Below the pieces are notes generated by a model. The model was given only the letters and a program-made list of their open reading frames with translations. It had not been told where the DNA came from and did no database searches. A program made the position numbers and the translations under genes. Source: Eubacteriales bacterium (GTDB lineage: Bacteria > Bacillota > Clostridia > Lachnospirales > Lachnospiraceae). From it: a stretch of 60,025 nucleotides of DNA. Positions 8,242 to 59,318 of the stretch are shown here, one piece after another. The stretch lies in contig JAUNPJ010000015.1 of assembly GCA_030536755.1 (NCBI GenBank), forward strand, positions 1-60,025, in the 5' to 3' direction. The stretch's first letter is position 1, and every line of letters starts with the position of its first letter.

Positions 8242-8253
8242 ATGTTGCACCTC

Positions 8254-9045: not shown

Positions 9046-10046
9046 TCGCATGGTTCCTCCTTTGCCAGTTTATTGATTAGATTTGCATAGGAAATATATT
9101 CCGGACAGACGGCGTCGCATCTGCCGCAGCCGACGCACATCGGGAACCCGAAACGTTTTTCAAAATCGTACAGTTTGTGCATCACCTTAAAGCGCATGCG
9201 CTCCCCTTGACTCTTGCGGAAGCTTCCTCCTCCGGCGATGTCGGTATAGCCATCTACCTGGCAGGATGCCCAGACTCTGCGGCGTTCTCCGACATTGGCA
9301 TTGTCGCGGTAGATGATATCCTGCATTGTAAAGCAGGTACAGGTCGGACAGACGAAGTTGCATCTGCCGCAGCCGATACAGCGACTCGTGTACTCATCCC
9401 AGACAGGATTTTTATAGCTTTCCACGGACAGTTTTTTGGGAAGGGTAACTTTTTCCTGATTTTCTGCTGCATACTCGGGAGAAACCACACAGTCTTCCTT
9501 CGGGGCATCTGCGAAGTATTTTGCCAGTTCTTCGCATTTGCAGTCTGCCAGCACGGTGGAATCACTGATTTTCAGGTACAGGTCGTAATCATCTGTCTGG
9601 TTGGTTCCAAGGCTTGCGCAGAAGCCATTCGCGCAGGTACTGCTGCAGCCCATCAGCACAAATTTTGCTTTTTCACGCAGGCGTTTGTAATAGAAGTCTT
9701 CCGGACCATTGTTCAGGTAAATGGTATCCAGTCTTTTGAGTGCGTGAAGATCACAGCTTCGCAGGAAAATCAGGATTCCTTTGTCCGAAAGAGCAGGAAC
9801 GGAAGTCTCTTCTTCTGTAAAATAGAAGAGTGTTTCGTTGACCGGAAACAGTGCCTCTTTGAAGGAATAATCGGATTTACGATCAAATTCGATATCCTCT
9901 AAGCTTTCTGCCTCCCCATAGCGGATTACATCCGTGTCAGAATAGCATCCTTCGCCGGGAAAGACCATGGGGGCGAAAATGCGATAATCTTTTTTCATCT
10001 GTTTGAACATATCATCGGCGGTAGTTCGACTTAATTGATATCCCAT
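9042..10046 (-). CDS. asrA: Anaerobic sulfite reductase subunit A (iron-sulfur subunit)
   Basis: Iron-sulfur subunit of AsrABC. The 334-residue protein has two C-terminal [4Fe-4S] ferredoxin motifs, CIGCGRCNFVCPTC and CVGCGRCDAVCPEY, separated by the family's usual spacer. The frame is open further upstream, but the ATG at 10046 sits seven bases after AAGGAG and gives the standard N-terminus MGYQLSRTTADDMF. First gene of the reverse-strand asr operon. A GTGA-N6-TCAC dyad lies about 70 bases upstream, suggesting control by the adjacent Crp/Fnr-like protein. Confidence 0.94.
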   Translation of the reverse strand: MGYQLSRTTADDMFKQMKKDYRIFAPMVFPGEGCYSDTDVIRYGEAESLEDIEFDRKSDYSFKEALFPVNETLFYFTEEETSVPALSDKGILIFLRSCDLHALKRLDTIYLNNGPEDFYYKRLREKAKFVLMGCSSTCANGFCASLGTNQTDDYDLYLKISDSTVLADCKCEELAKYFADAPKEDCVVSPEYAAENQEKVTLPKKLSVESYKNPVWDEYTSRCIGCGRCNFVCPTCTCFTMQDIIYRDNANVGERRRVWASCQVDGYTDIAGGGSFRKSQGERMRFKVMHKLYDFEKRFGFPMCVGCGRCDAVCPEYISYANLINKLAKEEPCE

Positions 10047-10103
10047 GTGTTTACTCCTTTGCATATGATTTCGTTTTGTAGTACCTCTATCATACAGGAA
10101 AAC

Positions 10104-10136
10104 AAAAAAAGATTCCGTGACGGGTATCACGGAATC
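10104..10136 (-). terminator. Terminator of the Crp/Fnr gene that also carries an operator-like dyad
   Basis: On the minus strand GATTCCGTGA...TCACGGAATC forms a ten-pair hairpin followed by seven Ts, an intrinsic terminator. The regulator's stop codon lies inside it. The centre, CGTGA-N6-TCACG (10116-10131), matches the half sites and spacing of the dyad in front of the regulator gene (10898-10913). It may therefore also be the operator for asrABC. Confidence 0.7.
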
Positions 10137-15887: not shown

Positions 15888-15930
15888 TAAACAATAGTGA
15901 ACGAAACTGTTGATAGGAAAGGGGAAACGT

Positions 15931-16824: not shown

Positions 16825-16876
16825 TATTTTCAGTATATAATTGAAAAGTAAATAAATGACAAAGGGGGTGCCGAAT

Positions 16877-17575: not shown

Positions 17576-17576
17576 C

Positions 17577-35630: not shown

Positions 35631-36122
35631 ATGCTGATTCTTAACAAGGAAACAACAGATAAGCTTTTCTCCCATGCAAGATCCGAATATCCAAAAGAAT
35701 GCTGCGGAATCCTGTTAGGCAGGCGGTTGGGAGAACAAAGAATTGCGTCAGCGGCGATTTCAACCAGGAATATGGCAGATGAGGCACAGACGCAGTTTTT
35801 GATCAATCCTCTTGAGATTGTCAGGGCAGAGAAGACTGCAGAATTGCAAAATCTGGAGATTGTGGGATTTTATCATTCACATCCCGATTATGAGGCGATC
35901 GTTTCACAGGCAGATGTGCTGCATATGATTGCGGGATATTCTTATTTGATTATTTCTGTGAAAAACGGTGTACATATCAGGGCGCACAGTTTTGAAAAGC
36001 AGATACACAAGGATATGGATGCAAAAGAGGAAATCTTGATAAATAAGGAGAAGAAAAATGGGAATTTCAGTATATATATCAGCAACGCTGAGGAGTTTTG
36101 TAAATCGAAATGCCCGGCTTGA
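35631..36122 (+). CDS. JAMM (M67) metallopeptidase, Mec-like
   Basis: A 163-residue zinc isopeptidase-type protein. Glu22 precedes CCGILLG, and the zinc motif is FYHSHPDYEAIVSQAD (HxHx7Sx2D), complete. In Mycobacterium tuberculosis a JAMM protein (Mec) releases cysteine from the carrier CysO, and in other bacteria JAMM enzymes trim ubiquitin-like carriers. The next gene encodes a sulfur-carrier domain with an internal Gly-Gly, its likely substrate (inference). The last 65 bases overlap that gene; the C-terminal 21 residues come from the overlap and may be dispensable. Confidence 0.85.
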   Translation: MLILNKETTDKLFSHARSEYPKECCGILLGRRLGEQRIASAAISTRNMADEAQTQFLINPLEIVRAEKTAELQNLEIVGFYHSHPDYEAIVSQADVLHMIAGYSYLIISVKNGVHIRAHSFEKQIHKDMDAKEEILINKEKKNGNFSIYISNAEEFCKSKCPA

Positions 36123-37521
36123 GATAGAGGGAACGACAGTTCGCGAAATATTGGAGCATTTGCAGGAGGAGTATCCGGATAGCAGGAAAGGACTGTTTGA
36201 GGAGGACGGCTCACTTCGGCCATTTGTCAGTGTCTATGTCAATGACGTTAGAATTTCAGAAGCAGTGCAATGGGAAAATTCTTTGTACGAAACAGATGAG
36301 ATTCTACTTCTGCCTGCGATTGCGGGAGGTGCACCTGTGGAAAGTGTTATTTCAGATGAAAGAAGAAAGGAAGTATCTCTGGGAGACCATGAAATCGAAC
36401 GTTTTAACAAGCATCTGATGCTTCGTGAAATCGGAGTCAAAGGGCAAAAGAAAATTATGGCAGCGAAAGTGCTGGTGATTGGTCTGGGGGCTCTTGGGTC
36501 TCCGGTCGTACAATATCTGGCGGCAGCAGGAGTGGGAACGATAGGAATTGCTGATTTTGATGAAGTTTCTCTTGGAAATCTGCAAAGTCAGGTGATTCAT
36601 GGAACCAGAGATGTACATCGTCCCAAGACTGCGTCTGCGAGGGATTCTATTAAGGCGATTAATCCGAAAATTAAAATTCAGGTAATCAATGAAAAAATAG
36701 AGGCTGACAACATTGAAGAAATTATAGAAGGATACGATGTCATAGTGGATTGTACGGATAACTATAAATCGCGTTATCTGATCAATGATGCCTGTGTCCT
36801 GCAGGACAAGCCGGCGGTATTTGGTGCAATGTATCAGTTTGAGGGACAGGTGAGTGTCTTTGATGCAAAATCCGGACCGTGTCTGCGCTGTCAGTTTCCC
36901 GCTCCGCCGCCGGCCGGCCTTGTTCCTACTTGTGCGGAGGGCGGCGTCATCAGTCCTTTGCCGGGGATTATTGGAAGTGCACAGGCAAATGAGGTGCTGA
37001 AGCTGCTTGTCGGAGGAGGAGAAAGTCTGACTGGAAAACTGCTCATGGTGGATACATGGAGGCTTCGTACATCCATTCTTCCGGTTCATAAAGATGAAAA
37101 CTGTCCGGTTTGCGGAAAACATCCATCTATTTTGGAAGTGGAAAATTTTGATTATGAAGATTTCTGTGGATTAAAGCAGGATGAATATGAAATACCTGTG
37201 GAGGGAATTGATGCAGAAGAACTGGCGATAAGAATTGAAAATGGAGATCCGATGACGATTGTGGATGTCAGAGAACCTCATGAGCGTGCGATTCAGCGTT
37301 TTCCAAATGCAATCATCATACCAATCGGACAACTGGCAAGGAGACAGAAAGAACTGGATCCCGATGTAGATACTATTTTTATCTGCAAAGAGGGAAAAAG
37401 AAGTATTCTGGCAATCAATACATTGCGGGAAGCCGGCTATAAAGGTCCGATGTACAACTTGAAGGGTGGAATAGAATCGGCAAAGAATATCATCTTTTCG
37501 AATGAAGCAGGATGGCTGTAA
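36058..37521 (+). CDS. Sulfur-carrier / E1-like / rhodanese triple fusion
   Basis: A 487-residue cytoplasmic fusion. Residues 1-91 are a MoaD/ThiS-like beta-grasp carrier ending in AIAGG (Gly90-Gly91), but the chain continues instead of stopping there. About 110-365 are a MoeB/ThiF-type adenylating domain: GLGALGSPVVQYLAAAGVG, LQSQVIH, DCTDNYKSRYLIND, and two CxxC pairs (CLRC, CPVC) for zinc. About 385-487 are a rhodanese with active cysteine in FICKEGKRS. It thus holds carrier, activation and sulfur donor in one chain. AAGGAG precedes the ATG inside the JAMM gene. Confidence 0.9.
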   Translation: MGISVYISATLRSFVNRNARLEIEGTTVREILEHLQEEYPDSRKGLFEEDGSLRPFVSVYVNDVRISEAVQWENSLYETDEILLLPAIAGGAPVESVISDERRKEVSLGDHEIERFNKHLMLREIGVKGQKKIMAAKVLVIGLGALGSPVVQYLAAAGVGTIGIADFDEVSLGNLQSQVIHGTRDVHRPKTASARDSIKAINPKIKIQVINEKIEADNIEEIIEGYDVIVDCTDNYKSRYLINDACVLQDKPAVFGAMYQFEGQVSVFDAKSGPCLRCQFPAPPPAGLVPTCAEGGVISPLPGIIGSAQANEVLKLLVGGGESLTGKLLMVDTWRLRTSILPVHKDENCPVCGKHPSILEVENFDYEDFCGLKQDEYEIPVEGIDAEELAIRIENGDPMTIVDVREPHERAIQRFPNAIIIPIGQLARRQKELDPDVDTIFICKEGKRSILAINTLREAGYKGPMYNLKGGIESAKNIIFSNEAGWL

Positions 37522-37592: not shown

Positions 37593-38540
37593 ATGGCAAA
37601 AGAGGTACAGGGAATCAATGCATTAGGAGCGCAGGCGGCATATAATCTTGCCAATGTGACAAAAACAAAACCACAGTATGGAGCTCTTACACCAAAGTGG
37701 TTAACAAAATTACTGGAATTTAAGGGGCTGGAAACAGGCATTTACCGTGTGAATAAGGTTGTAGAAGGAGAAACGCCACTGGATGTTTTGTGCAGTCAGA
37801 CGAAGAAGTCTGATATCATTCCGGATGGCTATATTGAGTATGAAACAGAACCAAGAGAATATCGTTTGAATTCTATTTCTACGATCATCAATATCAATAC
37901 TGCGATTGAGGATGTGTATAGTTCCCCTTATGATCAGGCAAAGGAGCAGTTGTCTCTGGCTATTGAAAGTTTGAGAGAGCGACAGGAAAGCCAGTTGATC
38001 AATAACGATGATTATGGACTGTTGAAAAATGTACCGGATTCGCAGAGAATCCAGTCACGTACAGGAGCGCCTACACCCGATGATCTGGATGAATTGATTA
38101 CAAAAGTATGGAAGGAGCCGTCCTTCTTCCTTGCACATCCGAGAGCGATTGCAGCATTTGAGAGAGAATGCACAAAGAGAGGTGTCCCGCCTGTAACCGC
38201 CAATATTGCGGGAGGAACTTTCATCCTATGGAGAGGAATTCCGATTATTCCAACAGATAAACTCATGGTAGATGGTCTGAAGAATCCGAAGAGCCAGAGT
38301 GGAAAGACGAATATTTTGCTGATTCGTACCGGAGAAGCGAAACGTGGTGTGATCGGACTTTATCAGGCAGGAATGAAAAATGAACAGTCAAGAGGCCTGT
38401 CAGTAAGATTCCGCGGAATTGATGATAAAGGAGTTGCATCTTATCTGTTATCTTTGTACTGCTCAGCAGCGATTCTGGCTGATGACGCAATTGCAGTATT
38501 GGAAGATGTCGAGGTAGGTGAATATTATGACTATGAATAA
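37593..38540 (+). CDS. srpI: Family 2A encapsulin shell protein (SrpI-like)
   Basis: A 315-residue HK97-fold shell protein of family 2A, starting with the extended N-terminal arm seen in this family (GINALGAQAAYNLANVTKTK). RVNKVVEGETPLDVLC, ISTIININTAIEDVYSSPYD, FFLAHPRAIAAFERECTKRG and GVASYLLSLYCSAAILADDAI all match SrpI-type proteins. These form roughly 25 nm protein shells; the Synechococcus homologue packages a cysteine desulfurase. Here the cargo gene overlaps its 3' end by 14 bases. AGGAGG precedes the ATG. Confidence 0.93.
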   Translation: MAKEVQGINALGAQAAYNLANVTKTKPQYGALTPKWLTKLLEFKGLETGIYRVNKVVEGETPLDVLCSQTKKSDIIPDGYIEYETEPREYRLNSISTIININTAIEDVYSSPYDQAKEQLSLAIESLRERQESQLINNDDYGLLKNVPDSQRIQSRTGAPTPDDLDELITKVWKEPSFFLAHPRAIAAFERECTKRGVPPVTANIAGGTFILWRGIPIIPTDKLMVDGLKNPKSQSGKTNILLIRTGEAKRGVIGLYQAGMKNEQSRGLSVRFRGIDDKGVASYLLSLYCSAAILADDAIAVLEDVEVGEYYDYE

Positions 38541-40119
38541 TTCCAGAGGAAATGCCGCAAATTATGGGTTACCTTCCGAGCTGGAATTAGAGGGACTGGC
38601 AAATCAGTTATTTTCAGATATAGATGGAAGCCTTTTTGAGCCGGAAGTGTGCGCCAATGGGATTGAAAAACTGGTTACATATGGTGATACGGGTATATTT
38701 GATGTGGCTGCAAGCAAGATAGCCGGAGTATCAGGCGGCTGGGATTTTGAGAATATCCCTGGCGTACTGAAAAAGGAATCCGGCAGCAGTGTGGAAGCAC
38801 AAGCAGCGACAGGATATTCACCACGTGTGATTTCCGAGCAGCAGGCGCAGACCCCAGCAGCAGGAAACCCTGCCGCAGCAGCTGCACACAAAGGTGATCC
38901 CCAGATTGTCGTGGGAAGTAAGAGCCTTGCTCAGATTCGTCAGGATTTTCCAATTCTTCAGGAGAAGATCAATGGAAATCCTCTGATCTGGTTGGATAAT
39001 GGAGCTACAACACAGCGCCCCAGACAGGTTATAGACAGGCTTACTTATTACTATGAACATGAAAATTCCAACGTGCACAGAGGCGCCCATACTCTGGCGG
39101 CAAGATCTACAGATGCCTATGAAGGAGCAAGACAGATCACAGCGGACTTTATCGGTGCACCTTCAAAAGACAACATTATTTTTGTGAGAGGAACGACAGA
39201 GGGAATTAACCTGGTTGCTCATTCTTATGTAAAACCACTTCTGCAGCCGGGAGACGAGATTATTGTATCTTTGTTGGAGCATCATGCAAACATTGTTCCA
39301 TGGCAGCTTATTGCACAGGAGACGGGAGCTGTGATTAAAGTGATTCCGGTAGATCAATCGGGACAGCTTCTCCTCTCCGAATATGAAAAATTATTTACGA
39401 AAAGAACAAAGTTTGTCTCTGTGACACACGTTTCCAATGTACTTGGAACCATCACGCCGGTGGCAGAATTAATTGCCATTGCACATCGGCATGGTGTCCG
39501 CATTCTGGTTGACGGAGCTCAGTCAGTGGCGCATATCCCGGTGAATGTGACTGCTTTGGATGCTGACTGGTTCGTATTTTCCGGACATAAGATTTATGCT
39601 CCTACAGGCATTGGCGCTGTTTACGGAAAAAAAGAAATTCTGGAAGAGGCAAAGCCTTACCATGGCGGTGGAAATATGATCAAAGATGTTACCTTTGAGC
39701 GAACCATATACAATCCTGCACCCAATAAATTTGAGGCGGGAACTGCAAGCATTGCCGATGCGGTAGGACTTGGTGCTGCCCTGGAATATCTGAACCAGAT
39801 TGGAATGCCGGAGATCAGCAGATATGAACATGAACTGGTCAGCTATGGAATGAAAGAGCTGGGAAAAATCAAAGGACTACATCTGATCGGTACGGCAGCT
39901 GAAAAATCCAGCGCACTTTCCTTTGTTATGGATGGCATTTCCGATGAAGCGGTTGGAAAGAGACTGGATCAAAATGGAATTGCTGTGCGTGTGGGGCATC
40001 ACTGTGCACAGCCGATTCTGAGACATTATGGACTGGAAAGCGTGGTACGCCCTACTCTGGCGTTATACAATTCATTTGAGGATATTGATGCTCTGGCAAA
40101 AGTCCTCCGTTCATTATAA
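38527..40119 (+). CDS. Encapsulin cargo cysteine desulfurase (SufS-like with targeting N-terminus)
   Basis: A 530-residue PLP enzyme that takes sulfur from cysteine as persulfide and releases alanine. Residues 1 to about 135 are an extension absent from ordinary SufS: it begins with a conserved-looking GLPSELELEGLANQLFSDI, continues to a GGWDFENIPG stretch, and ends in a low-complexity Ala/Gln/Pro linker. This is the type of domain that directs family 2A cargo into the shell. The rest is SufS-like, with PLP lysine in FSGHKIYAPTG and the persulfide cysteine in VRVGHHCAQP. Start ATG at 38527, after AGGTAGGTG. Confidence 0.93.
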   Translation: MTMNNSRGNAANYGLPSELELEGLANQLFSDIDGSLFEPEVCANGIEKLVTYGDTGIFDVAASKIAGVSGGWDFENIPGVLKKESGSSVEAQAATGYSPRVISEQQAQTPAAGNPAAAAAHKGDPQIVVGSKSLAQIRQDFPILQEKINGNPLIWLDNGATTQRPRQVIDRLTYYYEHENSNVHRGAHTLAARSTDAYEGARQITADFIGAPSKDNIIFVRGTTEGINLVAHSYVKPLLQPGDEIIVSLLEHHANIVPWQLIAQETGAVIKVIPVDQSGQLLLSEYEKLFTKRTKFVSVTHVSNVLGTITPVAELIAIAHRHGVRILVDGAQSVAHIPVNVTALDADWFVFSGHKIYAPTGIGAVYGKKEILEEAKPYHGGGNMIKDVTFERTIYNPAPNKFEAGTASIADAVGLGAALEYLNQIGMPEISRYEHELVSYGMKELGKIKGLHLIGTAAEKSSALSFVMDGISDEAVGKRLDQNGIAVRVGHHCAQPILRHYGLESVVRPTLALYNSFEDIDALAKVLRSL

Positions 40120-40143: not shown

Positions 40144-41097
40144 ATGAATCACAGACTGGAAAATGATGTAAACCGGCTTGTAGAGCAAATCATAGAGGAT
40201 TATAAAAAGGGAAGAGATATCGACGATATTGTAGAGAATTTTACCAATCCGAATAAGGATGATATTGTAAAAATACTGGATCAGATTCGAAATATCATAT
40301 TTCCGGGATACTATAAAAATAAAAGTTATCGTATCTATACAGTCAGAAATAATCTGTCTATGCAGTTAGAAGATGTACTGTATAATCTCAGCAAGCAGAT
40401 ATCCATTGTCCTGAAATATTTACCGGAATACGCGGGAAAGGAAGAACGGGAACTGCTGTATGAAGGAGAAAGACTGTCTTTGCAGTTCCTGGAAAAAATT
40501 ACAAAAATTCGAGAACTGATTCAGACAGATCTTCAGGCGGCGTATGATGGTGATCCTGCCGCTTTCAATAAACCGGAGATTATTTTTTCTTATCCGGGAC
40601 TGTATGCCACCATGGTAAACAGAATTGCGCATGAGCTTTATCTGCTCGGTATACCACTGATCCCGAGAATCATGACAGAACATGCACATACAGAAACCGG
40701 CATTGACATCCATCCGGGGGCGGTTCTGGGAAAATATTTCTTTATTGACCATGGTACGGGGATTGTGATAGGTGAGACGGCTATTATTGGAGATAATGTA
40801 AAAATATACCAGGGAGTGACCATCGGTGCTTTATCCACCAGAGGTGGCCAGAAGCTGCACGGAAAGAAGAGACATCCTACGATAGAAGACAATGTGACAA
40901 TCTATGCGGGGGCTTCGATTCTTGGAGGAGATACGGTGATCGGGCATGATTCTGTGATTGGCGGAAATGCATTCATCACTACCTCCATTCCTGCTGATAT
41001 GAGAGTCAGCATCAAAAATCAGGAGCTGGAGTACAGACAAGGAAAGAGAAACAGTAAGGAAATCAGCCAGAGTGAGGAATGGTATTATATCATTTGA
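40144..41097 (+). CDS. epsC: Serine O-acetyltransferase, copy 2
   Basis: A 317-residue EpsC-like enzyme, near-twin of the protein at 33547. Most differences lie in the N-terminal helices; the hexapeptide domain with HPGAVLGKYFFIDHGTG is nearly unchanged. It follows the desulfurase by 24 bases with GGAGAG, so it is part of the encapsulin operon. Serine acetyltransferases commonly accompany family 2A encapsulins, which fits the idea that cysteine supply and cysteine desulfuration are tied together. Confidence 0.92.
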   Translation: MNHRLENDVNRLVEQIIEDYKKGRDIDDIVENFTNPNKDDIVKILDQIRNIIFPGYYKNKSYRIYTVRNNLSMQLEDVLYNLSKQISIVLKYLPEYAGKEERELLYEGERLSLQFLEKITKIRELIQTDLQAAYDGDPAAFNKPEIIFSYPGLYATMVNRIAHELYLLGIPLIPRIMTEHAHTETGIDIHPGAVLGKYFFIDHGTGIVIGETAIIGDNVKIYQGVTIGALSTRGGQKLHGKKRHPTIEDNVTIYAGASILGGDTVIGHDSVIGGNAFITTSIPADMRVSIKNQELEYRQGKRNSKEISQSEEWYYII

Positions 41098-42084: not shown

Positions 42085-42146
42085 TTAGAAAAGTTTTCAA
42101 AGGAAACAAAAAGCAAAAATAAATGAGATAGATGGAGGAAAAAGTT

Positions 42147-43325
42147 ATGGGAAAATTATTTACATCAGAATCAGTAACAGAGGGACATCCGGACAAGATC
42201 GCAGATCAGATTTCAGATGCAATTTTAGATGCACTGTTAGAGCAGGATCCCAAATCCAGAGTTGCAGCAGAAACGACAGTAGCAACGGGACTTGCTCTGG
42301 TGGTAGGAGAAATCACAACAAAAGCATATGTGGATATTTCTAAAGTGGTCAGAGACACCATCCGGGAAATCGGCTATAAAAATGCAGGCGGGTTTGATGC
42401 AGATTCCATTGCAGTACTTACTTCGATTGATGAACAGTCCGCAGATATTGCTCTTGGAGTGGATAAGGCATATGAATCCAAACAGGAGAACGCAACAGAG
42501 GATTATGGAACCGGTGCAGGCGACCAGGGAATTATCTTTGGATACGCAACGGATGAAACGCCAGAGTATCTGCCGCCGGCAATTTCCTTTGCACACAGAC
42601 TGACAAGACAGCTTACAAAGGTCAGAAAAGATGGAACCTTACCTTATCTGAGACCCGACGGAAAATCACAGGTAACGGTAGAATTTGGGGAAGACGGTAC
42701 AACCGTAAAGCGAATTCATACGATTGTCATTTCTACACAGCATGAAGACTATGTCAGCCTTGAGCAGATTCGAAAAGATATCATTGAGTTTGTCATTAAG
42801 CCGGTTATTCCGACAGAACTGCTAGATGAGGACACCATTTACTATGTAAATCCGACAGGACGATTCGTGATTGGCGGTCCACAGGGAGATGCTGGATTGA
42901 CTGGAAGAAAGATTATCGTAGACACCTACGGAGGAACAGGACGCCATGGCGGCGGAGCTTTTTCCGGAAAGGATCCGACTAAGGTAGACCGTTCTGCAGC
43001 CTATGCAGCAAGATGGGTAGCCAAGAATCTGGTTGCGGCAGGCATTGCAAAAAAAGTGGAAGTAGAGCTGGCGTATGCCATTGGCGTGGCAAAACCTGTT
43101 TCTATTGCAGTCGATACATTCGGAACAGGAACTATCCCGGAAGAAAAAATCGTGGAAGTGATTGAAAAGGTATTTGATTTGAGACCGGCAGCGATTATTG
43201 CAGCGCTTGACTTACAAAGACCAATCTATAAACAGACAGCCGCTTATGGACATTTTGGAAGAACAGACATTGACCTTCCATGGGAAAATCTGGATAAGGT
43301 AGAAGAAATTAAGGAAAATTTATAA
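42147..43325 (+). CDS. metK: S-adenosylmethionine synthetase
   Basis: Makes SAM from methionine and ATP. The 392-residue protein has [35 protein letters not shown] and [20 protein letters not shown], all normal. The ATG at 42147 lies after TGGAGG; the ATG at 42132 is upstream of that site. It is separated from the NifH-like gene by 45 bases without a terminator, so it appears to be the first gene of that operon. This links SAM supply to the downstream radical SAM protein and MTA/SAH nucleosidase. Confidence 0.95.
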
Positions 43326-43369
43326 AAAGAACGGATCAATCCATTAACGAAGCGAAAGGAAATAAGAAA

Positions 43370-44245
43370 ATGGCAAATAAAATTGGAAAACATATCGCGA
43401 TATATGGAAAGGGAGGAATTGGAAAGTCCACCACGACTTCAAACATCAGCGCGGCACTTGCGGAAGCGGGATACCGGGTAATCCAGATTGGCTGCGATCC
43501 CAAAAGTGATTCCACGAACACTCTGAGGGGAAACAATTATCTGCCGACTGTGCTGGACAGTCTGAGAGAAGGAAATAAGATTCACCTGGATGATATTTCA
43601 GTGAAAGGATTTAACGGAGTGTTGTGTATTGAATCAGGCGGACCTGTTCCCGGAGTAGGATGCGCAGGAAGAGGCATCAATGCAGCTGTCAGTCTGCTGC
43701 AGGAGTTAAATCTGTTTGAAGAATTTAAACCGGATTATGTTTTGTATGATGTTCTTGGTGATGTCGTGTGCGGAGGATTTGCAGTTCCGATCAGAGACGG
43801 AATTACCGATCGGGCATATGTGGTAAGTTCTTCCGATTTTATGGCAGTGTATGCGGCAAATAACTTATTTAAAGCAATCAACAAGTATGCACCGACCGGA
43901 GGAGCAAAATTGGGAGGTGTGATCGCAAACAGCATCACAGCCGGATATTCCAGAGCCATTATTGATGATTTTACCAGAAAGACAGGAACAAAGGTGGCCG
44001 GCTATGTCAACCGTTCCCTTGTAGTGCAGCAGAGCGAACTGTACGGAAAAACAGTCATTGAGGCGAATCCGTCCTCGGAACAGGCGGATATTTACAGAAA
44101 TCTTGCCAAATATATTGCAGAAAATGAAGATCTGGTAGTTCCGAATCCACTGGGAGTCAGTGAACTTCGTGACTGGGCAAGAGAATGGGGAGACAAAATT
44201 TATAATCTGGATGCAGGTGTTGTATCCGGTGCGGAGGCCATTTAA
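43370..44245 (+). CDS. Nitrogenase-like reductase, NifH-like iron protein
   Basis: A 291-residue ATP-dependent electron donor of the NifH/BchL superfamily. P-loop [16 protein letters not shown], the first cluster cysteine in GVGCAGRGI, the second in [11 protein letters not shown], and the switch region [10 protein letters not shown] are all intact. It can therefore hold a [4Fe-4S] cluster between two subunits and reduce a partner DK protein. It is followed directly by D- and K-like genes. No nif assembly genes or nitrogen regulators are nearby. Confidence 0.93.
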
Positions 44246-44262
44246 AGAGAAGGGAGGCTGCT

Positions 44263-45669
44263 ATGAGCTTTATAGAAGAAAGAAAGGCTCTGACAAGAGA
44301 AAAACGATTAAGCACACTGAGTCATTACAACGGATCTCTGGAACAGCTTCGAAATGATGTGAAGGGCGCCGAAATACGACAGAGAATCCGGACGTTTTCC
44401 CAGATAACCAATGATGAGATTTTATTTGCAATCCGGCTGCTCAGTAAAGTGGAACAATCCGCCATCGTTGTGCATGGAGCAGTGGGATGCGCGGCATCCG
44501 GCATATATTTTAACGAGGAAAAAAGTCTTCATTGGTATTCTACGAATCTAAACGAGAGAGATACAATTCTGGGAGGAGATGAGAAGCTGCGAAAGGCGGT
44601 CATCAGAGCTTACGAGGAACAAAACCCGAAAGTAATCTTTATTGTAGGCACGCCGGTTGTAGCGATCAATAATGATGATGTGAATTCCTGCATTCTGGAA
44701 CTGGAAGAAGAGCTGGATGTAAAGATTGTATCTATTTATACCGATGGGTTTAAAACGAAAGCACCGACGACCGGATACGACATTGTACTGCATGCACTCC
44801 TTCGTTATGTGGTGGAAAGAAATCCAAAAGAGAAAGAAGATTTTATCAATGTGGTAACCGTATCTGAGAATAAAGAAGACATTGCTGCTGTGGTAAAGAT
44901 ACTGAAAGATCTGGATATTGCATATCAGCTTGTTCCGCAGTATTCCGGCATTGAGAAAATCAGGAAATCAGGTTCGGCAAAAGGAACCATCTGCCTGAAT
45001 GCAGACGAGGGAGAATACTTCGCAAAAGGACTTGAGGAATTGACAGGGGTTCCGTATATCAGAACAGAATCACCGATCGGTGTCCGCGGAACAAGACATT
45101 TTATCAGAAAACTTGCAAAGGCATTAGCGATAGAAGAGAAGGCAGCAGAGTACATCAAGAACAGAGAAGAAGAAGTACTGAAAAATGTGCAGCGGGAATT
45201 ATTTGCCGGCAGAAGCGTTTTTCTTGATACGAAACTGGCATTAACAGAAAATCTGGTTGATTTTGTGGAAAGCCTTGGTGGAAAAATAGCAGGAATTGCA
45301 GTTACTTATGTGGATTTAAATAACCGGCATGTAATTGAAAAATTGGATTCTCTCATGAATGCCATGCCGGTTGTTGTTGCGAATGGACAGCCTTTTGAAA
45401 AGGCAAATCTGTTGTCAAAAGAGCATATAGATTTTTATGTCAGCACAGAAGAAGATGTTGCTTTTGCCGCACAGCAGGGAAGCATACCAGTATCACTTGC
45501 ACATGTACCCATCTTTGGTTATGAAGGAATCCGACAGTTTGTTGGACTGATAGAAAAATCAGAAGCAGCGGACGGAATCCGAAAATTGATTCTGGAACAG
45601 AATGCATTTTATAAGGCTTCCTGGCTGAAAAAGAGCAGTAATTGGTATGTGAAACAGGAGGTGAGATAA
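44263..45669 (+). CDS. Nitrogenase-like component 1, D-type subunit
   Basis: A 468-residue protein of the NifD/NifE oxidoreductase superfamily. Only three cysteines are present: VHGAVGCAAS and NSCILELEEE, which fit two P-cluster-type ligands, and GTICLNADEGEY, which fits the position of the FeMo-cofactor cysteine of NifD. The first NifD P-cluster cysteine has no counterpart, and the histidine position near the C-terminus reads IFGYEG. It is therefore not a normal nitrogenase. GGGAGG precedes the start, and the stop overlaps the K gene by one base. Confidence 0.87.
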   Translation: MSFIEERKALTREKRLSTLSHYNGSLEQLRNDVKGAEIRQRIRTFSQITNDEILFAIRLLSKVEQSAIVVHGAVGCAASGIYFNEEKSLHWYSTNLNERDTILGGDEKLRKAVIRAYEEQNPKVIFIVGTPVVAINNDDVNSCILELEEELDVKIVSIYTDGFKTKAPTTGYDIVLHALLRYVVERNPKEKEDFINVVTVSENKEDIAAVVKILKDLDIAYQLVPQYSGIEKIRKSGSAKGTICLNADEGEYFAKGLEELTGVPYIRTESPIGVRGTRHFIRKLAKALAIEEKAAEYIKNREEEVLKNVQRELFAGRSVFLDTKLALTENLVDFVESLGGKIAGIAVTYVDLNNRHVIEKLDSLMNAMPVVVANGQPFEKANLLSKEHIDFYVSTEEDVAFAAQQGSIPVSLAHVPIFGYEGIRQFVGLIEKSEAADGIRKLILEQNAFYKASWLKKSSNWYVKQEVR

Positions 45670-47000
45670 TGCAGACAGTAATAAAAAATCCACGAAACGG
45701 ATGCGGACTGCATGGTGCTGTCCAGACAGTACAGGAAATCAAGGGCGTTGTACCGATTGTTCATTCCAATGCAGGCTGTGCTGTTTCCAATTATCTTGCC
45801 AATCAAGCTTCCGGGCTTGGAAATGGATTTGTAAGTGGATATTCGATCCCGGGAACGGATGTACAGGAACGCCATGTCATTTTCGGAGGCGCATCCAGAT
45901 TGAGGGAACAGATTAAAAATACACTTAAGGTCGTAGAGGGTGAGCTTTACATTGTGCTCAACAGCTGTGAATCAGCCATGGTAGGAGATGATATCGATGC
46001 CATGACGAGAGAGGCGCAGGAACAGGGTGAAAGTGTCATTGATTCTCTGATCGCAGGCTTCCATGGAGACAGCCATTATGGATATGAAAATGTACTTGCA
46101 GATATCATTAGAAAACTTCCCGAAGTAAAAAAAACAGAGGGAGAAAAAATAGAGAACCTTGTGAACATATTTGGAATTCTTCCACAGAAAGACATTTATT
46201 TTAAAGGTGATCTGGAAGAAATAAAACGGATTCTGGAGGGAATCGGATTAAAAGTCAATACATTCTTCGGATACACAGATGGAGTACAGGAACTGGTACA
46301 GGCGCCAGGGGCAGCTTTGAATCTTGTATTTTCAAAATGGGGAATTAAAGCGGCGAAAGAACTGGAAAGACTGTATGGAATCCAGAGTCTGGTGTATACA
46401 TCCGTACCAACCGGAATACGGGAAGTAAGAGAATTTGTAAATGAATTGACAGAGAAACTTTCGTTAGATGAAGAAAGAGCACAGCATTTTCTGCAACAGG
46501 AAGAGGAAAACTTCCGGTATTATTTCAGAGGAATTGCCGAGAGCTTTTTTCAGGAACATATTGGAAAAAAAGTTGCAATTGTAGGAGATGAGAGCAATGT
46601 AATCCGATATGCCTCTTATCTGAAGGAATATCTGGGAGCGATTGTTGAAACAGCAGTCGTAACAGACTTTTTTCCAAGCGAAGAATTTACACAAAGTGCA
46701 AAAACCGAGCAGCTGAAAGGAATTGCAAAACAAGTACATTTTTCACAGGATGGAACAGAAATCAATAAGATTTTGAGACACAGTGATGTGGAATTACTCC
46801 TTGCAAGTTCTCTTGAAGATGAGGTCGCAGAAAAAAAAGGAATCCTGAACTTTACCGTCTCTTATCCGGTTTACGAAAAAGCAATCCTGAATAAGAGTCA
46901 TGTGGGAATCAGAGGAGCACTTACCTTTACAGAGGATTTTATCACGAAAGTGAAAGAAAGCAATCGAATCCGGGAGAAAGCGCTGGAGAAAGTGATTTAA
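45669..47000 (+). CDS. Nitrogenase-like component 1, K-type subunit
   Basis: A 443-residue NifK/NifN-like partner. It has three cysteines at P-cluster-like places: NPRNGCGLHG, HSNAGCAVSN and LNSCESAMVGDD. Together with the D-type protein it would form the substrate-reducing complex fed by the NifH-like protein. The ATG at 45669 overlaps the D stop (TAATG) and follows AGGAGG. Having both D and K sets it apart from the two-protein CfbCD type of methanogens. Confidence 0.87.
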   Translation: MQTVIKNPRNGCGLHGAVQTVQEIKGVVPIVHSNAGCAVSNYLANQASGLGNGFVSGYSIPGTDVQERHVIFGGASRLREQIKNTLKVVEGELYIVLNSCESAMVGDDIDAMTREAQEQGESVIDSLIAGFHGDSHYGYENVLADIIRKLPEVKKTEGEKIENLVNIFGILPQKDIYFKGDLEEIKRILEGIGLKVNTFFGYTDGVQELVQAPGAALNLVFSKWGIKAAKELERLYGIQSLVYTSVPTGIREVREFVNELTEKLSLDEERAQHFLQQEEENFRYYFRGIAESFFQEHIGKKVAIVGDESNVIRYASYLKEYLGAIVETAVVTDFFPSEEFTQSAKTEQLKGIAKQVHFSQDGTEINKILRHSDVELLLASSLEDEVAEKKGILNFTVSYPVYEKAILNKSHVGIRGALTFTEDFITKVKESNRIREKALEKVI

Positions 47001-47029
47001 ATCATAAATCAAAAGAGGAGATAGCAGTT

Positions 47030-48148
47030 ATGAGAAAAAAAGGATTAAGAGTTTTAGCTGGAACTGTCATTTTTAGCCTGTTGCTTATAGGATGCGGAAA
47101 TAATGCGGCGACAGATACGAAAAATACAAAAACAGCATCTGAAGAAGCAACGGGTAATGAAACAACAGACGAAAAAACAAGTTCTTCTGAGTTGCCCACA
47201 GGTCATGTAGCGGATAAAGTTGTGGTTGCTTATGGTGATACTACAGGAACAGGTTTGTGTACCGGACTGTTGGGAATTGCCAGAGATAGCGGATATATAG
47301 AAGAAGAGCTGAATAAAATCAACGTAACATATGAAGACATGCCAATGATTGGAATGGGACCGGCAATTAATGAGGCATTTGCCGCAGGTAGTGTTGATAT
47401 TGGAAGTATGGGAGATGTTATCGCAGTGACAGGAAAATCAAATAATGTGGACACTAAGGTAATTTCATGGAGCAAAGGTCTTAAGGCATCTTCTATCGTT
47501 ACAGCACCTGGGTCTGATATTAAGTCAATTTCAGATTTAAAAGGAAAAAAAGTGCAGGCTTATCAGGGAACATTTATGTACAGGGATTTGATTGAATATC
47601 TGAAGCTTGGCGGATTGACCATTGATGATATTGAGTATGTAAACTGCAATGCAACGGAAGCAATTTCTATGCTTCTGACAGGTGGCATTGATGCATCTGT
47701 CAATGAAGGATATCCATTGGATACCGCACTGAAAGGAGGCGGCGAAGTTCTCGTAGATGGAAGAGATGAAGAGTATGCGTCCTTAAGAACGAATGGAGTA
47801 ACTTTGGTAAGAACAGAATTTGCAGAAAAAAATCCGGATATTGTTTATGCATTTGTGAAGGCACTGGCGAGAGCTTATCAAGATACTTTAAAAGATCCGG
47901 AAATATATTTTACACAATATGAAAAAGCAGGAGGAAACATCGATGTATTAAATTACAGCAATCCGAATCATATAATTGGAGAAACGATTGTTCCTACGGA
48001 GGATGAACTGAAGACGGAAAGTGATCTTATAGACTTTTTAGTTGAGCAAAAGCTTATTTCCGAGAAAGTTGATCTTGATGAGTGGACAAGTACATCTGTG
48101 TTTGCGGAAGCTGCATTTAACGAACTCGGAATGGAACTTCCTGAGTAG
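47030..48148 (+). CDS. ABC importer binding lipoprotein, sulfonate/nitrate type (first set)
   Basis: A 372-residue lipoprotein of the SsuA/TauA/NrtA superfamily. The lipobox is LLIGC, then a Thr/Glu/Ser-rich linker, then VVVAYGDTTGTGLCTGLLGIA and the family's AFAAGSVDIGSMGD segment. It probably binds a small sulfur compound, given the operon, but the ligand cannot be read from the sequence. AGAGGAG precedes the start. Next to its permease and ATPase genes. Confidence 0.87.
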   Translation: MRKKGLRVLAGTVIFSLLLIGCGNNAATDTKNTKTASEEATGNETTDEKTSSSELPTGHVADKVVVAYGDTTGTGLCTGLLGIARDSGYIEEELNKINVTYEDMPMIGMGPAINEAFAAGSVDIGSMGDVIAVTGKSNNVDTKVISWSKGLKASSIVTAPGSDIKSISDLKGKKVQAYQGTFMYRDLIEYLKLGGLTIDDIEYVNCNATEAISMLLTGGIDASVNEGYPLDTALKGGGEVLVDGRDEEYASLRTNGVTLVRTEFAEKNPDIVYAFVKALARAYQDTLKDPEIYFTQYEKAGGNIDVLNYSNPNHIIGETIVPTEDELKTESDLIDFLVEQKLISEKVDLDEWTSTSVFAEAAFNELGMELPE

Positions 48149-48156
48149 GAGGCAAT

Positions 48157-48921
48157 ATGGACAAATACAAAAAATTGGGATTCAGTCTTATTCTGCCAGC
48201 GATTATCCTGTTTATCTGGTTTTACAGCACAACTTATAAAGGTGTTCCTGATGCGATTCTTCCAACCATACAGTCTGTAGGAAAAGCATTCAAGACAACA
48301 ATAACAAGCGGGCAGCTTCAGGAGGATTTGCAGGTAAGCTTTATTCGAGTGATCAAAGGGTATTTATGTGCGGTTTTGCTGGGAATTATTGCAGGCGTTT
48401 TGACAGGAATGAATGAGTATATAAAAGTTTTTCTGAATTTAACATTGACTACGATTCGTCAGATTCCAATGGTCGCATGGGTTCCGCTGATTATCCTGTG
48501 GTTTGGAATTGATGATATGTCAAAGATAGTAACAATTGTACTTGCTGCTTTTTTCCCGGTCATGATTAATGTATCGAATGGAATTGCTACAACACCGAAA
48601 GCATATCTGGAGCTGGCAAGAATTTACAAAATGTCTCCGTGGAAAACTTTTATAAGAGTGTATCTTCCTAATGCGTTGCCGTCTGTTTTTGTTGGATTAA
48701 GACTGGCCCTTGGAAGCTCATGGATGGCGGTTGTGGCAGCGGAAATCCTGGGAGCTACCTCTGGAATGGGATATCGACTTTCCTTTTCAAGAACATTGAT
48801 GCAGCCGGATATTATGTTTACCTGTATGATTGTGATAGGAATTGTTGGCATCATTATGGATAAATTGTTATTGTATTTATTCCAAATTCTTACTCCATGG
48901 TCAGACGAAAAGAAAGGGTAA
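48157..48921 (+). CDS. ABC importer permease (first set)
   Basis: A 254-residue membrane protein of the SsuC/TauC type with about six membrane spans and the coupling loop ELARIYKMSPWKTFIRVYLP. It is similar in pattern to the permease at 56227. It starts eight bases after the binding protein stop. Confidence 0.9.
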   Translation: MDKYKKLGFSLILPAIILFIWFYSTTYKGVPDAILPTIQSVGKAFKTTITSGQLQEDLQVSFIRVIKGYLCAVLLGIIAGVLTGMNEYIKVFLNLTLTTIRQIPMVAWVPLIILWFGIDDMSKIVTIVLAAFFPVMINVSNGIATTPKAYLELARIYKMSPWKTFIRVYLPNALPSVFVGLRLALGSSWMAVVAAEILGATSGMGYRLSFSRTLMQPDIMFTCMIVIGIVGIIMDKLLLYLFQILTPWSDEKKG

Positions 48922-48926
48922 CGGTT

Positions 48927-49709
48927 ATGACTGAGTTGAACGAAGAAATTTTAAAAATAGAAAATTTAAATCATTATTTTCAGGTAAATGGAGAGGAATT
49001 TCAGGTTTTAAAAGATATTAATCTGACTGTCAATAAAGGGGAGTTTATTACAATTGTAGGCCACAGCGGATGTGGAAAAAGTACGTTGCTTAGAATCATA
49101 GCAGGCCTGCAAAAAAACTCTGAGGGAACAGTTATCAGGAATGGAAAGCCTTTGACGGAACCGGATTCAGATTGCGGAATGGTATTTCAGGAACACAGAT
49201 TACTTCCATGGCTGAAAATTAAGGATAATGTTGGATTTGGACTGGAGGGAAAATCCAGAGCAGAAAAGGATAAGCTTGTAAAGGATTATATTAAATTGGT
49301 TCATCTGGACGGCTTTGAAAATGCATATCCGAAGCAATTGTCAGGAGGTATGGCACAAAGGGCGGCAATAGCCAGAGGACTGGTGACAAATCCGGATATC
49401 CTTTTACTGGATGAGCCGTTTGGAGCATTGGATGCGCTTACCAGAATTCAAATGCAAAAAGAAGTGCTGAACCTCTGGAATCAGAAAAAAATAACAATGA
49501 TATTAGTTACACATGATATAGACGAAGCGATTTTTCTTGGACAAAGAGTGATCGTTATGAGTTCCAGACCCGGTGAAATTAAAGAAATTATAAAAATCGA
49601 ATCGAATATGGCAAAAAAAAGAGGGTCTTTGGATGCGTCATATTATAAACGTAAAATTTATAAATATTTTTTTGAAGATTCAGAGGAAGAAATTGACTAT
49701 GTAATTTAG
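48927..49709 (+). CDS. ABC importer ATPase (first set)
   Basis: A 260-residue SsuB/TauB-type ATPase: GHSGCGKSTLLRIIAG, LSGGMAQRAAIARGL and LLLDEPFGALDALTRIQMQ. The ATG at 48927 follows AAAGGGTAAC; an in-frame ATG at 48897 lies within the permease gene. A strongly similar ATPase is encoded at 55432. Confidence 0.9.
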   Translation: MTELNEEILKIENLNHYFQVNGEEFQVLKDINLTVNKGEFITIVGHSGCGKSTLLRIIAGLQKNSEGTVIRNGKPLTEPDSDCGMVFQEHRLLPWLKIKDNVGFGLEGKSRAEKDKLVKDYIKLVHLDGFENAYPKQLSGGMAQRAAIARGLVTNPDILLLDEPFGALDALTRIQMQKEVLNLWNQKKITMILVTHDIDEAIFLGQRVIVMSSRPGEIKEIIKIESNMAKKRGSLDASYYKRKIYKYFFEDSEEEIDYVI

Positions 49710-49751
49710 AAAAAATTTGAAAAACTGAGAAAGGATTGGACAGGAGTATAT

Positions 49752-50927
49752 ATGGGTTTAAAAGATCAACTTTACGAAGAATTATTTTTAAAACTGAGAA
49801 TTGAGATTGAAGGAATTAATGCAAGACCAAAGGATTTTGTTAATCTGGCACTGGGAACAGAATATATCGAGAGAGTACATATAGATCCTGAGAAACTGAC
49901 GGTTCTTAAGCCCGGAACATTATTGCCTTCGGGATTCAGAACACCTCATGGTCTGCATATTGGATTTCCATGGAATCCAAAATCAGCTTTTGGGATAGCT
50001 TATCACGATGGAGAACATTTTTTACAGGAAAATGGAAAAGATGTATTTCCGATTCATTTTGATAAGAGACCAAAATATTATTCGGAAGACACAACAGATG
50101 GTGTACCAATGCGTTGGATTTCGAACTATGATGTGCCAAGCAAGACTGTAAGAGTTACTTATAGTAATCAGTGTGCTTTGCAGGACAAAGGTCTTGATTG
50201 TAAGTTTTGCCATGGACAGGCAGCACACAATCCTAATAATGTACAGGACCAGCTCAAAAATCCTCGACAGATTGGAGAAACTTATGCGAAAGCAATCGAA
50301 TTGGATGGGGCTGCTCACTTTCAGCTTACAGGAGGATTTTTGCCGGAACGCCGGGAAGTGGAATATTATCTTGATATTGCAGAAGCACTTGCAGATTATA
50401 CGGGACTTGAAGATTTCAATGCAAATGCATGCGTTGGAGCTCCTGCAGATCTTACTGTTTTGGAACGATATAAAGAAGCTGGCTTTAAGAGTATTGCGTC
50501 AAATCTTGAAATCTGGGATGAAGGAATTTTTAAAGCGATTTGTCCGGGAAAATATCTTGAAGTACCGGGTGGATGGAAGCATTGGGTAGAAGCATTGGAG
50601 TACGGTGCACAAGTATTTGGGTTCGGAGAAGTAGGGTCAAACTTTGTAGGAGGTTTGGAACCGAAAGATTCCCTGTTAGAAGGTGTCCAGTACTTAGCCG
50701 AGAAAGGTGTGGTAGCAGGCGTCAGCATCTTTCATGCAGTTCCTGGTTCCGGACTGGATGGACACAGATGCCCGGAACCGGATTGGTATTTTGGCGTTGG
50801 AAAAGAAATTTACAAGATTCATAAGAAACATGGTTTTTCATTTAGACAGCTTTCGCAGGTAAAACCTGGAAACAGTATGCTTGAACACGATATATTCAGA
50901 ATTGAAGAAGGAATACCGTTTGATTAA
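49752..50927 (+). CDS. Unusual radical SAM protein of the nitrogenase-like operon
   Basis: A 391-residue protein with a BioB/HydE-like barrel in outline. The presumed cluster site is SNQCALQDKGLDCKFCHG, that is CX8CX2C rather than the usual CX3CX2C. Later come QLTGGFLPERREVEYYLDIA, SNLEIWDEGIFKAICPGK and GFGEVGSNFVGGLEP, which match barrel strands of BioB-like enzymes. I do not know its product. Options are a cofactor-building enzyme standing in for NifB, or a sulfur-chemistry enzyme. The neighbouring nucleosidase would remove 5'-deoxyadenosine. CAGGAG precedes the ATG. Confidence 0.78.
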   Translation: MGLKDQLYEELFLKLRIEIEGINARPKDFVNLALGTEYIERVHIDPEKLTVLKPGTLLPSGFRTPHGLHIGFPWNPKSAFGIAYHDGEHFLQENGKDVFPIHFDKRPKYYSEDTTDGVPMRWISNYDVPSKTVRVTYSNQCALQDKGLDCKFCHGQAAHNPNNVQDQLKNPRQIGETYAKAIELDGAAHFQLTGGFLPERREVEYYLDIAEALADYTGLEDFNANACVGAPADLTVLERYKEAGFKSIASNLEIWDEGIFKAICPGKYLEVPGGWKHWVEALEYGAQVFGFGEVGSNFVGGLEPKDSLLEGVQYLAEKGVVAGVSIFHAVPGSGLDGHRCPEPDWYFGVGKEIYKIHKKHGFSFRQLSQVKPGNSMLEHDIFRIEEGIPFD

Positions 50928-50939
50928 GGTGGAGAGTAC

Positions 50940-51650
50940 ATGAGCAGCAGAGAAAATAAATATAGTAAGATTGCAATTGTAAGTGCAATGGAGGTCGAGC
51001 TGGAATATGCAGACAGATTTCTGACAGGAAGAGAAGGATGGGTAAAACTGACGGAGAACAGCTATCAATATTTGAATGGTACGACAGTTTATACAAGGGT
51101 AGTGGGTGCAGGAAAGGTAAATTCTGCTTTTCAGACCTCTGATGTGATAAATGAGTATCATCCTGATTTGGTGGTAAATGTAGGATATGCCGGAGGATTA
51201 GCGAAAGGTGCCAGGAAAGGAGATGTTGCAATTGGAACAGATTATGTTCAGGTTGATTTTTATCCATTCATTGGACAGAGACCTCCAGAGGCAGAGACAC
51301 CACAATTTTTAATCGATGCATTGCAAAAAGAAGCAAAGGAACTTGAGATTCCTGTCTTTACAGGAAAAATTGCAACGGGTGATTTTTTCCTGCATAGTGC
51401 AGAAGAAAAAAAGAGGATTATTTCAGAATTTGAACCAATTGCATTTGATATGGAATCGGCGGCGATTGCACAGGTTGCTGCATATAAAAATGTTGATTTT
51501 GCAGTATTGCGTACCTTTTCTGATTTGGCAGATGACGATGCACTGGATTCTATTACGGATACCAGCATTCAGCAAGAAAACATAAAAATATCTATTGAAC
51601 AAAGACCAATTGTGCTGCTTTTGTCTACTCTGGAAAAACTTGTTTTTTGA
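50940..51650 (+). CDS. MTA/SAH nucleosidase family protein
   Basis: A 236-residue nucleoside phosphorylase-superfamily enzyme that removes adenine from methylthioadenosine, S-adenosylhomocysteine or 5'-deoxyadenosine. Catalytic residues are visible: the Glu in VSAMEVELEYA, the Glu in AFDMESAAIAQV, and the Asp in LRTFSDLADDDA. It starts 13 bases after the radical SAM gene. In this operon it would recycle SAM by-products, including the 5'-deoxyadenosine that inhibits radical SAM enzymes. Confidence 0.9.
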   Translation: MSSRENKYSKIAIVSAMEVELEYADRFLTGREGWVKLTENSYQYLNGTTVYTRVVGAGKVNSAFQTSDVINEYHPDLVVNVGYAGGLAKGARKGDVAIGTDYVQVDFYPFIGQRPPEAETPQFLIDALQKEAKELEIPVFTGKIATGDFFLHSAEEKKRIISEFEPIAFDMESAAIAQVAAYKNVDFAVLRTFSDLADDDALDSITDTSIQQENIKISIEQRPIVLLLSTLEKLVF

Positions 51651-56214: not shown

Positions 56215-56226
56215 GAGGAAGAAAAG

Positions 56227-57003: not shown

Positions 57004-57015
57004 GGAGATGAAGAC

Positions 57016-59289: not shown

Positions 59290-59318
59290 CAACATATAGA
59301 AACAGGAGGAATTAGAAA

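Follow-up and report, generated by a model that had tools for sequence, protein, structure and literature searches.

What does a nitrogenase-like enzyme do when its genes lie between one for S-adenosylmethionine (SAM) synthetase and those for a sulfonate-type importer? The question is raised by a locus in a 60,025-nucleotide stretch of DNA from an Eubacteriales bacterium of the Lachnospiraceae (contig JAUNPJ010000015.1 of GenBank assembly GCA_030536755.1, positions 1 to 60,025), referred to below as the window. A preliminary description had placed NifH-, NifD- and NifK-like genes (H, D and K; together HDK) between metK and the importer, followed by genes for a radical SAM protein and a methylthioadenosine/S-adenosylhomocysteine (MTA/SAH) nucleosidase, all on one strand with short gaps, and had proposed methylthio-alkane reductase (Mar) as the closest known logic. 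Open reading frames (ORFs) and profile matches confirmed this arrangement. According to the ORF list, the operon comprises nine intact genes, all on the + strand, between 42132 and 51650, with no more than 44 bases between neighbours and a few small overlaps. We consider it very probable that this operon is of the isethionate reductase (Isr) type and serves to desulfonate sulfonates. It probably assimilates a sulfonate, for which isethionate is the best guess. The nine genes are, in order:

42132..43325 (inner ATG 42147), + strand: metK, operon-borne SAM synthetase (TIGR01034, 586 bits, cut-off 309)
43370..44245, + strand: isrH-like NifH-type reductase with Cys98 and Cys134 (PF00142, Fer4_NifH, 316 bits)
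44263..45669, + strand: isrD-like NifD-type subunit with a single P-cluster cysteine, Cys76 (PF00148, Oxidored_nitro, 217 bits; tree; ligand columns)
45669..47000, + strand: isrK-like NifK-type subunit with Cys12, Cys37 and Cys100 (PF00148, Oxidored_nitro, 228 bits; tree; ligand columns)
47030..48148, + strand: sulfonate-type substrate-binding protein (TIGR01728 SsuA_fam, 130 bits, under the cut-off of 164)
48157..48921, + strand: importer permease, SaoP/SsuC-like (Pfam and NCBIfam profiles, below curated cut-off)
48897..49709, + strand: importer ATPase, SaoA/SsuB-like (Pfam and NCBIfam profiles, below curated cut-off)
49752..50927, + strand: isrB-like variant radical SAM protein with Cys141-x8-Cys150-x2-Cys153 and a conserved Cys264 (CPGK) (NF045502, 405 bits, cut-off 125)
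50940..51650, + strand: MTA/SAH nucleosidase (TIGR01704, 86 bits, cut-off 74)

The ORF list begins K at a TTG at 45642; we placed the gene at 45669-47000. The best solved relatives of the binding protein were SsuA (3uif and 2x26) and a taurine-binding protein (6ssy). For the radical SAM protein, the search of solved structures yielded no informative relative, the single match scoring 25 bits across 52 residues. H scored 375 bits against the nifH model, slightly below the cut-off of 394. Of the Nif, DPOR, COR and Cfb models matched by D and K, none came near its curated cut-off, the best for D being nifE at 111 versus 505 bits. In a genome-wide profile search, no NifB was found in the window's genome (best match 30 bits versus a cut-off of 344). 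A NifHDK nitrogenase was rejected on these grounds, the curated NifD and NifK scores not having been reached, and DPOR, COR and CfbCD were rejected because the curated scores of their catalytic subunits were far under cut-off. The earlier statement that no nif genes lie nearby thus holds for NifB throughout the genome; no other nif genes were seen near the operon, as judged solely by reading ORFs.

If the enzyme were Mar, it would use an [Fe8S9C] cluster for reductive C-S cleavage in methylthio compounds. Mar is indeed the best solved relative of both H (MarH, 9fmg_D, 394 bits; next, NifH at 272) and D (9fmg, 134 bits), and Mar and Isr both cleave C-S bonds. We placed D and K in trees of 61 and 60 rows, respectively, built from ORFs of at least 160 residues with quick IQ-TREE runs and the Shimodaira-Hasegawa-like approximate likelihood ratio test (SH-aLRT), without bootstrap. 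Two plasmid records supplied Mar-type reference rows, as did nine of the 18 further Bacillota genomes with a match in a sample of 398. D of one plasmid record (L042) matched the solved MarD of 9fmg at 295 bits; "Mar-type" is a broad label that does not assure true Mar for every row, and many of the stretches, not all, have NifB, NifX or OAHS neighbours. In the D tree, the window fell in a 33-row clade (SH-aLRT 98) with 29 Lachnospiraceae-type rows, Rubrivivax and two other genomes. In the K tree, it fell in a 32-row clade (SH-aLRT 94) with 28 Lachnospiraceae-type rows and the same kinds of companions, again Rubrivivax and two other genomes. The Mar-type rows (25 for D, 24 for K) lay outside the window's clade, as did NifD/E in the D tree, so both subunits are placed apart from Mar-type and Nif rows.

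The cluster-ligand residues agreed with the trees. The columns of the NifD P-cluster ligands hold Cys in all 24 Mar-type D rows that have a residue at these positions; the window has Asp51, Cys76 and Pro131. It thus keeps only the equivalent of Cys88, Cys76, a column with Cys in 31 of the 32 Isr-type rows with a letter. The column of the cofactor cysteine (Cys270) is likewise Cys in 24/24 Mar-type rows, versus Asn or Asp in 32/32 Isr-type rows (Asn246 in the window). K kept all three P-cluster cysteines in 31/31 Isr-type rows with a letter. Of four His-rich Mar columns that may hold the cofactor ligand His429, two lacked His in Isr-type rows. Finally, Pfam revealed no NifX beside HDK in the window. 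The Mar reading fails because D and K lie outside the Mar-type rows, the D ligands are missing and NifB was not found; we regard it as extremely unlikely, which removes for this operon the claim of a methylthio-cleaving system and, with it, of a source of ethylene and a methane precursor.

A matching system has been known since 2024. In the purple bacterium Rhodobacter capsulatus, Isr acts on isethionate and frees sulfite, and growth on isethionate requires each of isrB, isrH, isrDK and the Ssu-type importer SsuCAB (PMC11423573). Rhodobacter sphaeroides, which served as a host in that study, is unable to grow on isethionate. Because this system acts on isethionate and releases sulfite, the likely cargo of the window's importer is a sulfonate rather than a methylthio compound. 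The preliminary idea of an anaerobic sulfur unit accordingly survives as that of an operon for acquiring sulfur by means of a nitrogenase-like enzyme of Group IV type, shorn of its methylthio substrate.

To survey relatives, genome contigs were scanned with D. This yielded 30 loci, 29 from records titled Lachnospiraceae, Clostridiales or related and one from Rubrivivax. All of the 29 Lachnospiraceae-type loci had H and D, 28 had K, 27 had metK, 26 had a radical SAM protein of the same family, 24 had the permease and 18 had the nucleosidase. Contig ends account for several of the absences, and the radical SAM protein of L009 belongs to a sister branch. The importer, radical SAM and nucleosidase genes are thus widely kept with HDK in Lachnospiraceae. 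Pseudobutyrivibrio sp. YE44 (G315) is one carrier genome; its match coordinates equal those of G153, a genome listed in the window's own family, which is therefore most likely Lachnospiraceae. G136, of the same genus as the window's genome, had no D match. By eye, the second metK of G136 adjoins a radical SAM-like ORF of a different kind. In a sample of 299 genomes, Isr-type D (at least 190 bits, our own cut) occurred in five, all five of which also encode an NF045502 protein. The Rubrivivax locus (L036) has the order D-K-radical SAM, its radical SAM protein being 44% identical to that of the window. A K query in 398 and 299 genomes around Rubrivivax, which sought further Pseudomonadota members, matched Rubrivivax only. 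Intestinal bacteria are named among Isr carriers in PMC11423573, and an Isr hidden Markov model has been built for mouse-gut genomes (PMC12330013). The present data place the 2024 sulfonate pathway firmly in rumen and gut Lachnospiraceae. In G320, a Lachnospiraceae genome, about 18 kb separate an Isr HDK from a Mar-type HDK within a single sulfur island (L143-L144), but no NF045502 protein was found at E 1e-30.

The gene maps of the relatives revealed a metK-HDK core accompanied, 5' or 3' of HDK, by a variable number of units, each comprising a binding protein, a permease, an ATPase and a variant radical SAM protein. In the 29 Lachnospiraceae-type genomes, searched genome-wide, Isr-type D occurs once per genome. 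By contrast, 12 genomes have two Isr-type radical SAM genes, 15 have one and 2 have none. These counts include one second copy truncated at a contig end, treat a gene divided between two contigs as single and exclude sister-branch copies in two genomes. In these relatives, then, each HDK is accompanied by one or two cassettes of radical SAM and importer genes, which form a swappable unit. This goes beyond the literature that we found: a search of open-access papers, mostly at the level of titles and abstracts, turned up no account of several radical SAM cassettes per HDK, an absence that carries little weight.

We then compared evolutionary distances across 36 cassettes from 27 genomes, assigned by hand from gene order. 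This set omits the sister branch and cassettes that were truncated at a contig end or had no recognised permease (L017, L029, L036, the first of L132, the second of L133, L134 and L026). The distances of the radical SAM protein correlated with those of the permease with r of 0.897, as compared with 0.40 for radical SAM and D and 0.31 for permease and D; none of 2000 permutations reached any of the three correlations. Radical SAM and ATPase distances correlated with r of 0.691 (33 cassettes). When the radical SAM proteins were swapped within the nine two-cassette genomes, only one of 512 arrangements, the observed one, reached the radical SAM-permease value (mean 0.46). After clustering at 85% D identity, which left 26 cassettes from 19 genomes, the correlations were 0.852 for radical SAM and permease (0/5000 permutations) and 0.349 for radical SAM and D (1/5000), and swaps in seven genomes gave 1/128. 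Accessory genes partly track the type of radical SAM protein: a short-chain dehydrogenase was present in 4/4 members of one radical SAM sub-branch, with no other match above 150 bits in the loci searched. MATE transporters are present in several cassettes.

Radical SAM proteins of this family also occur in units without HDK. The radical SAM tree, from which ORFs of fewer than 300 residues and six loci (L121, L123-L127) were omitted, contained a sister branch of 11 rows (support 100, midpoint root). Three of its genomes, G002 (L114), G014 (L115) and G122 (L113), have units of metK, radical SAM and importer genes. No PF00148 match at E 0.001 was found in these three (94, 99 and 96% complete, respectively), nor in two others of the nine examined. 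In the sister branch, the radical SAM gene of L110 has alcohol and malate/lactate-type dehydrogenases for neighbours, that of L108 a hydroxyacid dehydrogenase and that of L114 a TauE-type sulfite exporter. The cysteine count further omitted five outlying rows (L105, L116, L117, L119 and L120). Cys264 was common to all 52 radical SAM rows compared, and the Cys141/150/153 triad was present in all of them bar two single cells, one an unreadable residue and one Tyr150 in L010. Of the 11 genomes examined, all but G136 have one metK copy within a radical SAM/importer unit or isr operon and another elsewhere. The conserved cysteines, the linkage to metK and the HDK-less units fit an enzyme that would use SAM as a co-substrate on imported compounds.

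These results bear on which component chooses the substrate. An Isr-type HDK could itself be the substrate-specific catalyst, with the radical SAM protein acting only as an activase or cluster maturase. The Isr paper leaves the point open, describing the role of IsrB as unclear and mentioning activases such as IslB (PMC11423573). The joint presence of Isr-type D and an NF045502 protein in all five sampled genomes would suit such a division of labour, as would a radical SAM-D correlation that is weak yet beyond chance. Against it stand the 12 genomes with two radical SAM genes per D, the much closer tracking of the permease, the units in genomes without a PF00148 match, and the extra metK in these units, which suggests stoichiometric use of SAM. 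We consider a purely activating role unlikely, if well worth weighing. Because the radical SAM protein tracks the permease much more than D, because no swap improved the match and because HDK-less units exist, the data suggest that substrate choice lies with the radical SAM protein. We tentatively propose that, in Lachnospiraceae, one HDK acts as a common power supply for exchangeable cassettes of radical SAM protein and importer, each with its own sulfonate. The radical SAM protein would recognise the substrate and start C-S cleavage with SAM as co-substrate, HDK would give a common ATP-driven reduction, and the sister branch of radical SAM proteins would work with importer and metK but without HDK.

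Several observations weigh against the assignment to Isr or against the shared-HDK proposal. The likeness to R. capsulatus Isr rests on published descriptions, no R. capsulatus sequence having been in the trees or comparisons, and the window has Asp at the NifD Cys62 column where the published IsrD has Arg. The Rubrivivax and G295 rows are long-branched, the Rubrivivax D is a 170-residue fragment and the SH-aLRT values come from quick trees. Neither blast hits nor reading revealed an importer gene of this type on the 8.3-kb Rubrivivax contig, and the window's radical SAM protein groups weakly with the Rubrivivax one (83, open fork). An NF045502 protein was missing from 2/29 relatives' genomes at E 1e-30, while G076 has a 240-bit NF045502 protein without Isr-type D. 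The relatives' cassettes seem to serve several substrates. Finally, co-inheritance of a linked block would explain part of the radical SAM-permease correlation. The HDK core is linked too, the radical SAM gene in some loci following K immediately (28 bases away in L019), yet D tracks the radical SAM protein weakly.

The presence of both metK and the nucleosidase in the operon could also suggest that they are its core enzymes, and that it salvages MTA or other methylthio sulfur derived from SAM. We regard this as very unlikely: the profiles identified no further MTA-salvage gene among the nine, the importer and its binding protein look sulfonate-type, and metK accompanies radical SAM cassettes even where HDK is lacking. 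This last association points instead to SAM supply and 5'-deoxyadenosine removal. The nucleosidase reported earlier is present (TIGR01704), but it more likely removes 5'-deoxyadenosine made by the radical SAM enzyme than MTA. The window's genome has three metK copies; the others are on other contigs, the best-scoring one on contig C16.

Further genes for sulfur metabolism lie elsewhere in the window:

7267..10130, - strand: anaerobic sulfite reductase genes asrC (7267-8250), asrB (8254-9051) and asrA (9042-10130) (TIGR02912, TIGR02911 and TIGR02910, all above cut-off)
35631..36122, + strand: JAB-domain protein (Pfam)
36058..37521, + strand: ThiS-ThiF-rhodanese fusion (Pfam)
37593..38540, + strand: family 2A encapsulin shell (PF19307; NF041162, 489 bits, cut-off 380)
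38518..40119, + strand: cysteine desulfurase, probable encapsulin cargo (NF041166, 779 bits, just below the cut-off of 800; SufS family, 541, cut-off 475)
40144..41097, + strand: serine O-acetyltransferase (EpsC model NF041874, 155, cut-off 150; cysE, 162, under 211)

The JAB, ThiF-rhodanese, encapsulin, cysteine desulfurase and serine acetyltransferase genes lie directly 5' of the operon in the window. Among 14 genomes mapped, the same sulfur island lies 3' of isr in three relatives (L140, L142 and L143). Together, these genes allow a route to be sketched. The importer would bring in a small sulfonate, with isethionate as the best guess. The IsrB-type radical SAM protein and the ATP-driven HDK would jointly cleave its C-S bond, releasing sulfite; HDK may reduce the substrate, an intermediate or the radical SAM cluster. 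AsrABC would convert the sulfite to sulfide. The sulfide would then be fixed via serine acetyltransferase and later sulfhydrylation enzymes. MetK would provide SAM, and the nucleosidase would clear 5'-deoxyadenosine.

Regulation was also considered. As for RNA control 5' of metK, Rfam matched only a THF riboswitch and a Clostridiales-1 RNA in the window, the sequences upstream of metK being read by eye; on five relatives' loci, Rfam gave three tRNA matches and nothing else. A scan for promoters and terminators found 43 sites versus 42.4 expected and 9 versus 9.8 expected, respectively, and was thus uninformative. By eye, L016, L019, L020 and L025 share a short conserved stretch 5' of metK, after a small ORF, with a possible hairpin and T run; it had no Rfam match and appeared absent from the window.

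Other features of this genome were noted. Two serine acetyltransferase genes (33547-34500 and 40144-41097), about 6 kb apart, appeared closely similar by eye. The region 15910-18629 encodes a molybdate-type binding protein (TIGR01256, 126 bits, cut-off 63), then an apparent permease and ATPase, judged by eye. A second sulfonate-type importer lies at 55432-60025; a sulfatase separates its permease from its binding protein. The ATPase of this importer shares 75-83% identity with those of L025-L027, L030, L031, L033 and L113, and a sulfatase 56% identical to this one adjoins metK-HDK in L035. Another contig of the genome (G000:C108) carries two more divergent NifH/NifD/NifK-like sets (L040, 10822-13916 and 18899-19666; L041, 8-2121). 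Genes amid these sets resemble HypF, HypD and HypE by eye; the five proteins of the two sets that were scanned were under all curated cut-offs.

Overall, the operon is a known kind of system, and the cassette pattern is the part most worth following. The pattern makes the role of IsrB beside HDK experimentally approachable by cassette swap, and it points to several further sulfonates as anaerobic sulfur sources.

Compared with R. capsulatus Isr, the window shares HDK, a radical SAM protein and a sulfonate importer, and its radical SAM protein beside HDK is likewise not NifB-type. By published positions, D Cys76 and K Cys12, 37 and 100 lie near the single cluster cysteine of IsrD, Cys74, and Cys12, 37 and 99 of IsrK (PMC11423573). 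The isethionate-induced 26-kb isr locus also contains sufS2, a "major membrane protein I", serine acetyltransferase-2 and a rhodanese protein (PMC11423573). The window has the same kinds of neighbours in its cysteine desulfurase, serine acetyltransferase and rhodanese genes. Its encapsulin extends the parallel if "major membrane protein I" is, as we presume, an encapsulin. The window differs in its order, metK-HDK-importer-radical SAM-nucleosidase, in the additional metK and nucleosidase of the operon, and in that its Lachnospiraceae relatives bear up to two radical SAM/importer cassettes. The isethionate sulfite-lyase IslAB similarly releases sulfite from isethionate anaerobically, but is a glycyl radical enzyme without HDK; it restored growth of the R. 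capsulatus DK mutant (PMC11423573). The variant radical SAM family NF045502 includes the window's protein as well as importer-linked members in HDK-less genomes. Mar (MarBHDK) shares the nitrogenase superfamily and C-S bond cleavage; it possesses the ligands of both the P-cluster and [Fe8S9C], and its MarB carries NifB motifs (PMC12552129), whereas the window lacks the D ligands and NifB was not found. Mar-type islands in Bacillota (L091-L102; G692, G378, G501, G534 and others) can hold several DK pairs with few or no H or NifB genes nearby, some of the pairs being separated by importer or OAHS genes. The proposed sharing of one HDK among cassettes would be the inverse of the arrangement in some such islands, where several DK pairs accompany few or single H and NifB genes.

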